A DNA stretch of 55,777 bases from Parcubacteria group bacterium (GTDB lineage Bacteria; Patescibacteriota; Minisyncoccia; Phycocordibacterales; CALRBT01): NCBI GenBank assembly GCA_943354475.1, contig CALRBT010000005.1, positions 1-55,777 of the forward strand, given 5' to 3'. Made by a program: the position numbers and the translations under genes. The notes under the pieces were generated by a model. That model worked only from the letters and a program-made list of their open reading frames with translations. It was not told the DNA's origin and searched no databases. This document shows positions 51,102-51,960 of the stretch, piece after piece. Numbering within the stretch: position 1 is the stretch's first letter; each line of letters starts with the position of its first letter.

Positions 51102-51174
51102 GGGCGATTAGCTCAGTTGGTAGAGCAACTCATTTACACTGAGAAGGTCGGGGGTTCAAGTCCCTCATCGCCCA
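51102..51174 (+). tRNA. tRNA-Val(TAC)
   Basis: GGGCGATTAGCTCAGTTGGTAGAGCAACTCATTTACACTGAGAAGGTCGGGGGTTCAAGTCCCTCATCGCCCA. Confidence 0.95.
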
Positions 51175-51225
51175 CTAAACAAAAGAGACAATGTATCACA
51201 TTGGTGATTATTGTTTATGAGGCAA

Positions 51226-51347
51226 GATGAGGGACTTGAAAGACGGAGGCGATATACAAGACGAGCTTTGCGAGGACTTGTCGCCGAGTCGGGGTCGAGA
51301 AAATTTTGTTTACAAAATTATTCGTGACCAAGTCCCTCATCGCCCAC
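51226..51347 (+). repeat. tRNA-3'-end-mimic palindromic element (tRNA-Val)
   Basis: Inverted copy gatgagggacttg 51226-51238; direct copy caagtccctcatcgcccac 51329-51347, identical to 51157-51175 of tRNA-Val. Confidence 0.88.
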
Positions 51348-51400
51348 AAAAACTTAAAAACCCTAAGTGAGCTTAGGGTTTTTAAGTTTTTGTGGGCGAT
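51339..51400. terminator. 29-bp perfect hairpin ATCGCCCACAAAAACTTAAAAACCCTAAG-TGAG-CTTAGGGTTTTTAAGTTTTTGTGGGCGAT
   Basis: Read directly; incorporates the duplicated tRNA-Val 3' end. Confidence 0.85.
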
Positions 51401-51427
51401 AGTAAGCAACCTGCCTTGCTTACGTGA

Positions 51428-51537
51428 AGGACTTGAAGAGTTTGAACGTATCGCGCGCAACGCAGTGAGCACGATATGTAAGGGAACACTTATACTCTTG
51501 AGTAAAAACCGTACAGAATCTGTAAGATTCAAGTCCT
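51428..51537 (+). repeat. tRNA-3'-end-mimic palindromic element (source tRNA not in window)
   Basis: Arms AGGACTTGAA / TTCAAGTCCT; core TATCGCGCGCAACGCAGTGAGCACGATATG. Confidence 0.65.
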
Positions 51538-51751
51538 ACTGACTTGAAAAGGTTCTCCCACATTTTTGAGGATATGTGTATCCGAAAAAATGGGAAACCT
51601 GAACTGAACCTGTAAGGTTCTAGTCCCAAATGTTTTACTCGAGGTTTACCCCCCCCAGTAAAACAGTAAAACAGGAGTCTCCCCCAACGGGGGCGGGTAT
51701 CTTTCTCGTTTTGCTTCGCAAAACATAGAAGGGTCTTTCGAGACCTACACA

Positions 51752-51839
51752 GTAGGAATCTTTCCCTACGGGAACGGTACAGGCTTCATATCGTACTCGC
51801 TTTGCTCCGTGCGATATATTCAGCCTTTTCGATTCCTAC
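51752..51839 (-). repeat. tRNA-3'-end-mimic palindromic element (tRNA-Arg)
   Basis: gtaggaatc 51752-51760 and inverted gattcctac 51831-51839; tRNA-Arg carries gtaggaatcgaac at 51897; core TATCGCACGGAGCAAAGCGAGTACGATATG on minus strand. Confidence 0.8.
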
Positions 51840-51888
51840 ACGCTCGTGCATTGGCACGAGCTCGGGGGGACACTCACTACGTTCGTTG

Positions 51889-51960
51889 TCCCCCCGGTAG
51901 GAATCGAACCTACATCAAGAGCTTAGAAGTCTCTTGTTCTATCCATTGAACTACGGGGAG
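51889..51960 (-). tRNA. tRNA-Arg(TCT)
   Basis: CTCCCCGTAGTTCAATGGATAGAACAAGAGACTTCTAAGCTCTTGATGTAGGTTCGATTCCTACCGGGGGG. Confidence 0.93.

Follow-up and report, generated by a model that had tools for sequence, protein, structure and literature searches.

Short non-coding units just 3′ of tRNA genes carry an inverted and a direct copy of the T-arm of their host tRNA

The window analysed here, a stretch of 55,777 nt that constitutes contig C5 of a 786-kb genome (the home genome), contains short gene-free units located just 3′ of a tRNA-Arg and a tRNA-Val gene. The units are about 110–250 bp in size and, read in the sense of the tRNA, are made up of the tRNA 3′ end (A1), a hairpin, a 12-nt inverted copy of the T-arm (A′), a core of about 70 nt and a direct copy of the T-arm (A2). 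Units with this architecture occupy many tRNA genes, their arms track the tRNA that they adjoin, they have spread between tRNA genes and they end in a target-like duplication. We propose, with confidence that is evenly divided, that they are short non-coding palindromic mobile elements whose flanks are copied from each host tRNA by template switching; the copying process itself we infer from the sequences. tRNA genes are classic landing sites of mobile DNA, and each element known to us fits one or a few tRNAs. The presence of one non-coding family over many tRNA genes in one order of ultra-small bacteria (Patescibacteria), with arms fitting each host, points to either a new mode of movement with target-copied arms or intense lineage-specific replication error at tRNA T-arms.

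Units in the window and their conserved core

The tRNA-Arg(UCU) and tRNA-Val(UAC) genes were identified by ARAGORN on opposite strands in convergent orientation, and much of the 712 bp between them consists of five units, three behind tRNA-Val and two behind tRNA-Arg (Table 1). The three arm strings that the first-pass annotation had reported at tRNA-Arg (51897–51913, 51831–51839 and 51752–51760) are present at these coordinates. Both the direct and the inverted copy that it had described downstream of the gene are exact, but the inverted copy comprises 12 nt rather than 9: GTAGGAATCGAA (51828–51839) is, in tRNA sense, the 100% complement of TTCGATTCCTAC (51897–51908, tRNA positions 54–65), and the direct copy GATTCCTAC (51752–51760) corresponds to tRNA positions 57–65. 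The unit also includes an inverted copy of the acceptor strand and two more hairpins. The tRNA-Arg gene together with its unit was folded at −88 kcal/mol (z = −8.1), and the tRNA-Val region gave a z value of −7.8.

A covariance model (R1) was built from 15 units. The conserved parts of the core are an arm termed P1, the motif GTACNG and a hairpin termed P3. The core stems covary, with 94% of cells paired, 358 cells changed on both sides and a covariation score of 0.66, as compared with 0.18 for shuffled and at most 0.18 for slid partners, all these figures being inflated by the fitting of the alignment to the R1 model. The G-U content of the stems, used as an RNA-versus-DNA test, was 1–4% versus about 4% in tRNA stems and was suggestive for P3 only.

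The direct copy A2 begins at T-loop position 57 and often extends to about the tRNA 3′ end. In 41 of 70 units it was at least 16 nt long and stopped close to the tRNA 3′ end, and in 27 of the 70 its identity extended back across TTC; A2 lengths of 36–73 nt represent tandem units. With a direct repeat running from position 57 (60 in the long elements described below) to about the tRNA 3′ end, A2 is like a target-site duplication, as sought in miniature inverted-repeat transposable elements (MITEs). The units build up as tandem arrays and nest inside one another.

Occurrence, arm matching and spread between tRNA genes

In the home genome the architecture is found behind about 16 of 39 tRNAs. The R1 search gave 19 confident units there, all adjoining tRNAs save two near the ends of contig C2; these matches are partly by construction because the model was trained on home-genome sequences, which does not apply to matches in other genomes. 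In the order to which the home genome belongs (the home order), R1 matches were obtained in 85 of 148 genomes, with up to 29 units per genome. A phylum-wide draw of 287 genomes gave matches in five only, all from the home order. Named carriers are metagenome-assembled genomes (MAGs) of Zambryskibacteria (L082) and Lloydbacteria (L080), RYN_382 (L091) and UBA910 (L086). By UppS, used as a single marker, the nearest named relatives of the home genome are Kaiserbacteria, Zambryskibacteria and Lloydbacteria, which we take to belong to the Paceibacteria group of the Patescibacteria. Pattern scans of IMG/VR gave one chance match with neither unit nor tRNA and no other.

Units were collected from the home genome and about 28 others, 92 in all, and 84 of them have a same-strand tRNA upstream, at a median distance of 60 nt. 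When an inverted arm was scored as at least 10 of 12 matches not more than 160 nt downstream of a tRNA, it was found behind 57 of 136 tRNAs in four genomes of the home order and behind 1 of 136 when the downstream DNA was shuffled. In sister orders, which were used since a non-Patescibacteria control of GTDB contigs yielded 5 tRNAs only, the arm was behind 1 of 47. Both controls agree with the earlier argument against random palindromes.

That the arms follow the host tRNA, as had been proposed from tRNA-Arg and tRNA-Val, holds far outside the window. On average, 10.94 of the 12 positions of A′ agreed with the local T-arm (n = 84 units; 38 perfect, 75 with at least 10), as compared with 8.47 on average and 8.87 at most in 5000 permutations. 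The observation that would have refuted the proposal, arms at odds with the neighbouring tRNA, is confined to a minority of units. Partly mismatched arms are seen, for example, in the Tyr units of G101 and G023 and in the Gly-GCC unit of G003, a tandem-GA variant arm (CGAGAA) recurs at several tRNAs, and a few array units match no neighbouring tRNA. In a Val-GAC array, as read from the sequence, the second unit fits the altered A2 of the first unit and not the tRNA.

Among pairs of cores at least 80% identical but placed at different tRNAs, A′ corresponded, at the differing positions, to its own tRNA in 505 cases, to that of the partner in 32 and to neither in 47, the pairs not being independent. 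At the 43 positions where A1 and A2 differ, A′ fitted A1 at 38, A2 at 3 and neither at 2, in a test biased to A1 because tRNA function fixes A1 and A′ was placed by its best A1 match.

The nearest neighbour of a core was found in the same genome in 32 cases, in another genome at another tRNA in 25, and never in another genome at the same isoacceptor. A 26-nt core insertion is common to Pro, Leu, Val and Cys units, in the home genome only. G101 and G023, two species of one genus, have 20 and 9 of 38 tRNAs occupied, mostly different ones, at a threshold (10 of 12 over 450 nt) that lets in a few false calls. In the conserved uppS block, units are found at Val and Arg-UCU in the home genome, at Leu-GAG and Val in the Zambryskibacteria MAG, at Leu-GAG in the Lloydbacteria MAG and at Ser-UGA in RYN_382. 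Mobility and arm tracking are well supported.

In G101, long elements at Arg-GCG, Arg-UCU and Gly-UCC have common blocks up to 100% identical. Their inverted arms comprise 17 nt (exact), 18 nt (exact) and a copy with one base missing, and their direct repeats, which start at T60, comprise 31, 52 and 19 nt, respectively. The two larger elements hold extra modules of about 77 nt related to the ordinary unit, and the smallest copy shows the corresponding empty sites. Since near-identical long elements carry locally fitting arms, the arms appear to be written during insertion or close to it rather than to arise by gradual adaptation. This element type is possibly a second or parental family.

Table 1. 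Features of the tRNA-Arg and tRNA-Val units in the window and of the long elements of G101
Feature	Position	Strand	Description
Host tRNA-Arg(UCU)	51888..51960	−	A1 (T-arm 54–65) 51897–51908, acceptor 3′ strand to 51888; ARAGORN, Rfam RF00005
acceptor′	51864..51871	−	GTCCCCCC, inverted copy of tRNA acceptor 3′ strand
hp1	51840..51863	−	GC-rich hairpin GAGC..GCGT, between acceptor′ and T-arm′
A′	51828..51839	−	Perfect 12-nt inversion of T-arm positions 54–65
P1 arm of conserved core	51781..51826	−	AGGCT..AGCCT and inner stem; covarying stem
GTAC and P3 hairpin of core	51762..51780	−	TTCCC-GTA-GGGAA; covarying stem
A2	51752..51760	−	T-arm positions 57–65, direct copy
A′-body-A2, whole unit core	51752..51839	−	Covariance model R1, E 2e-21; own sequence among R1 training set
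Second diverged unit, type III body	51671..51748	−	Behind first Arg unit; weak R1 match, E 0.1
tRNA-Val(UAC)	51102..51175	+	Hosts plus-strand units; T-arm A1 51155–51166
tRNA-Val unit 1, type II body	51224..51347	+	A′ 51224–51240; A2 51329–51347 (19-nt exact direct copy)
tRNA-Val unit 2, type I	51392..51539	+	acceptor′ 51392–51402, hp1 51401–51425, A′ 51426–51437, P3 51516–51530, A2 51531–51539
tRNA-Val unit 3, type I, diverged arms	51537..51629	+	A′ 51537–51548, P3 51606–51620, A2 51621–51629
Long element type, core GGGAAGGGGTCGGG...GAGATAGCGAAGCG	L229:1085–1420, L234:14600–15090, L234:880–1130	− (L234:880–1130)	Nested modules of about 77 nt

Some bodies and flanks depart from the common pattern. 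The type II body of the first tRNA-Val unit (GACGGAGGCGATAT...GTCGCCGAGTCGGGGTCG...GTGACC) is not covered by R1, and a similar body is located at C1:24552–24692 of the home genome behind tRNA-Met(CAU) (C1:24477), with equal arm architecture and a different core. Behind the home-genome tRNA-Phe (C2:35976–36050) there is a hairpin, very long and nearly perfect, that takes in the acceptor strand of the tRNA (GCACAAACACAAAGAAAGCGCGCAAC...); it has no unit core and may represent a unit in an early or stripped state. Behind tRNA-Gln-CUG (C1:34455–34527) there is a 32-nt exact direct copy of the 3′ end, 37 nt downstream, with no inverted arm, and a like sequence is found behind tRNA-Gln-UUG (C9:31991).

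Origin of the arms: proposed process and alternatives

The flanks are probably rewritten when replication switches template at the T-arm, a palindrome centred on position 57, exactly the start of A2. Template switching in replication yields reverse-complement copies and creates and perfects hairpin arms (PMC8794818). Insertion of a core would be coupled to the making of two copies of the local T-arm, one backwards and one forwards, by template switching in replication or repair at this palindrome, and homology would be provided by the T-loop motif TTCRANTCC, which all tRNAs share. If such a switch also picked up the core of another unit, the order T, T′, core, T would result in one or a few steps, enzyme-free, and later fold-back copying of the same kind would keep the arms matched. 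As the 3′ end of the host tRNA itself is never replaced, the tRNA is left intact.

With the families searched (RVT_1, Y1_Tnp, IS110, LAGLIDADG_3 and Phage_integrase), a dedicated enzyme seems unnecessary. RVT_1 (reverse transcriptase) is absent in the high-copy genomes G003, G014, G022, G101, G039 and G010, and Y1_Tnp (PF01797) is absent in G000, G003, G010, G031 and G077, which carry 17–29 units. The IS110 DEDD transposase was over the cut-off in just 2 of 30 genomes and is absent in 13 of 15 high-copy genomes. Phage_integrase genes number one, at most two, per high-copy genome, as in zero-copy genomes, and are mostly a single gene; no dedicated tyrosine integrase was found in high-copy genomes. 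Enzyme-free switching is in line with the absence of reverse transcriptase, Y1, IS110 and LAGLIDADG_3 each from several high-copy genomes and with the tyrosine recombinase being a single gene in nearly all. Terminal inverted repeats such as a casposon, inserted by the Cas1 integrase, would have were not seen on reading the units. A reading frame like a large serine recombinase (CVLYARKSTEEDDQQIMSIEAQLFELREYAS; by eye only) is located shortly behind a tRNA cluster on contig C9 of the home genome, behind tRNA-Leu-UAG on the minus strand, below position 1643.

Several points weigh against arm copying by template switching. The covariation of the stems could equally be due to selection for an RNA, and the occurrence of several quite different cores within one architecture hints at specific machinery. 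Insertion was deduced from empty sites in relatives or from nested copies. An imperfect A′ is seen in some recent copies, at Tyr in G101 and at Gly-GCC in G003, so that either the arms are at times written with errors or part of them is retained from the previous site. The A′ of the long elements is a discrete complement of the T-arm with no acceptor copy, an outcome not expected of a single fold-back from downstream.

This guide-like appearance of the long-element A′ makes a base-pairing-guided enzyme a serious rival, although we consider it unlikely. A′ and the P3 5′ strand would serve as guides pairing with the target T-arm, which would account for the fixed left edge and the target duplication of 17–31 nt. 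In agreement with it, a structured scaffold comes after A′, itself a discrete 12–18 nt complement of the target. The left edge of the direct repeat is sharply defined (position 57; 60 in long elements), the right edge less so, and in three nested insertions the alignment shows that the 5′ strand of P3 complements the right flank. A guide, however, must fit before insertion, yet near-identical elements bear different, locally fitting arms. The enzyme families covered by the searches, RVT_1, Y1_Tnp, IS110 and dedicated tyrosine integrases, are each missing from several high-copy genomes as stated.

A little less probable still is a functional RNA co-transcribed with the tRNA, in which A′ would alternate between pairing with A1 and with A2 and tune tRNA maturation, selection keeping the arms matched. 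P1, P3 and the A′/A2 pairing covary strongly, and GAA, which pairs solely with tRNA positions 54–56, is kept in 63 of 66 units. A′ is predicted to take the tRNA T-strand in 44 of 65 read-through folds, and the calculated energies of both states are close, retention of the native T-stem costing a median of 2.6 kcal/mol. In such modelled read-through transcripts A′ could compete for the T-arm. Against a conserved RNA function, sister species use different tRNAs, 63 of 148 genomes have no model match, and A′ follows A2 in just 3 of the 43 positions at which A1 and A2 differ, so that no A′-A2 compensation was found. The units place an antisense T-arm beside essential genes in bacteria whose genomes are very small, which could affect the maturation of the tRNAs, and they may contribute to assembly breaks at tRNA clusters.

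Site-specific integration by a tyrosine recombinase at the tRNA T-loop, the core being a minimal integrated element bounded by direct repeats of attachment (att) sites, is improbable. Att cores in tRNA genes are direct repeats running from the T-loop to the tRNA 3′ end, and the direct repeats of the units, at least 16 nt long in 41 of 70, resemble them. One small family, however, cannot supply matching att sites for dozens of tRNAs, the inverted copy is left unexplained, and the Phage_integrase count is alike in high-copy and zero-copy genomes.

Mobilisation by LAGLIDADG homing endonucleases that cut tRNA genes is equally improbable. Stand-alone LAGLIDADG_3 genes of the home order adjoin tRNA genes at 16 of 20 loci (L285–L304) and co-occur weakly with the units (odds ratio 2.6, p 0.007), but a strong unit was found at 1 of 30 endonuclease loci only and no tRNA direct repeat is present behind the endonuclease gene. 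The role of mobiliser is disfavoured by the high-copy genomes that have no such gene, 10 of 18. These genes, represented in the home genome at C1:24923–25429 and C9:18388–18591, prefer spots behind tRNA-Leu-CAA and tRNA-Met and just before tRNA-Tyr and tRNA-Ser, and have the appearance of free-standing homing genes that target tRNA loci.

Random palindromes, transcription terminators or assembly artefacts can practically be dismissed: terminators are common in hairpin-rich DNA beside tRNAs, but here no T-run is present (hp1 is followed by GT-A′ and P3 by A2), chance is refuted by the shuffled (1 of 136) and sister-order (1 of 47) controls, and one core occurs in many genomes, including the separately published L080, L082, L086 and L091.

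Comparison with known systems

In searches of Rfam at gathering and permissive thresholds, tRNAs alone reached gathering scores and the sub-threshold matches were unrelated or hairpin-only, so that a group I or group II intron or another known RNA family was rejected for lack of a covariance-model match. A retroelement or retron was likewise rejected on account of the six high-copy genomes lacking RVT_1. No published description of such units was found in the open-access literature, subscription papers being outside the search, and we know of no element that carries a backward and a forward copy of whichever tRNA it adjoins.

Repetitive extragenic palindromic (REP) sequences and their REPIN arrangements, associated with the Y1 transposase RAYT (e.g., PMC3733652), are also short non-coding intergenic palindromes present in many copies per genome and likely non-autonomous. 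The tRNA units differ in being located only 3′ of tRNA genes, with arms copied from the host tRNA. They lack the GTAG or CGTC tag that defines the 20–40 nt REP palindrome, or any constant tag outside the arms, their conserved parts being the T-arm motif, P1, GTACNG and P3, and Y1_Tnp is absent from several high-copy genomes. MITEs and other small mobile repeats (e.g., PMC2229807) are similarly small, non-coding and dispersed, with long direct repeats like target duplications; in contrast, the units have no fixed terminal inverted repeats, their terminal and internal arms vary with the host tRNA, they hold an internal inverted copy of the target, and no parent transposon was found.

Integrative elements at tRNA genes, with T-loop att sites and tRNA gene fragments (PMC9897764), also duplicate the tRNA 3′ end directly from the T-loop, but the units are geneless, of about 110–250 bp, occur at many tRNAs and have an extra inverted arm and no dedicated integrase. 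Template-switch hairpins (PMC8794818) share reverse-complement copies beside the template and arms that are kept matched; they are single events, whereas the units recur, have a conserved core and are bound to the T-arms of tRNAs. Guide-carrying elements (the IS110 bridge RNA, the exon- and intron-binding sites, EBS/IBS, of group II introns, and the IscB/TnpB omega RNA) have a target-complementary segment beside a structured scaffold as well. In the units the guide-like arm is rewritten per target, Rfam gave no match, and the matching enzymes are absent from high-copy genomes (RVT_1 and IS110; TnpB/IscB not searched).

The units lie outside the definitions of REP, MITE and att elements; our confidence in the mechanism is about even. 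With slightly less assurance, we suggest that the units may constitute a class of mobile element that derives its targeting arms from the target whenever it inserts, one backward and one forward copy of the host T-arm being made at each new tRNA gene, with several unrelated cores occupying one slot and no known transposition enzyme taking part.
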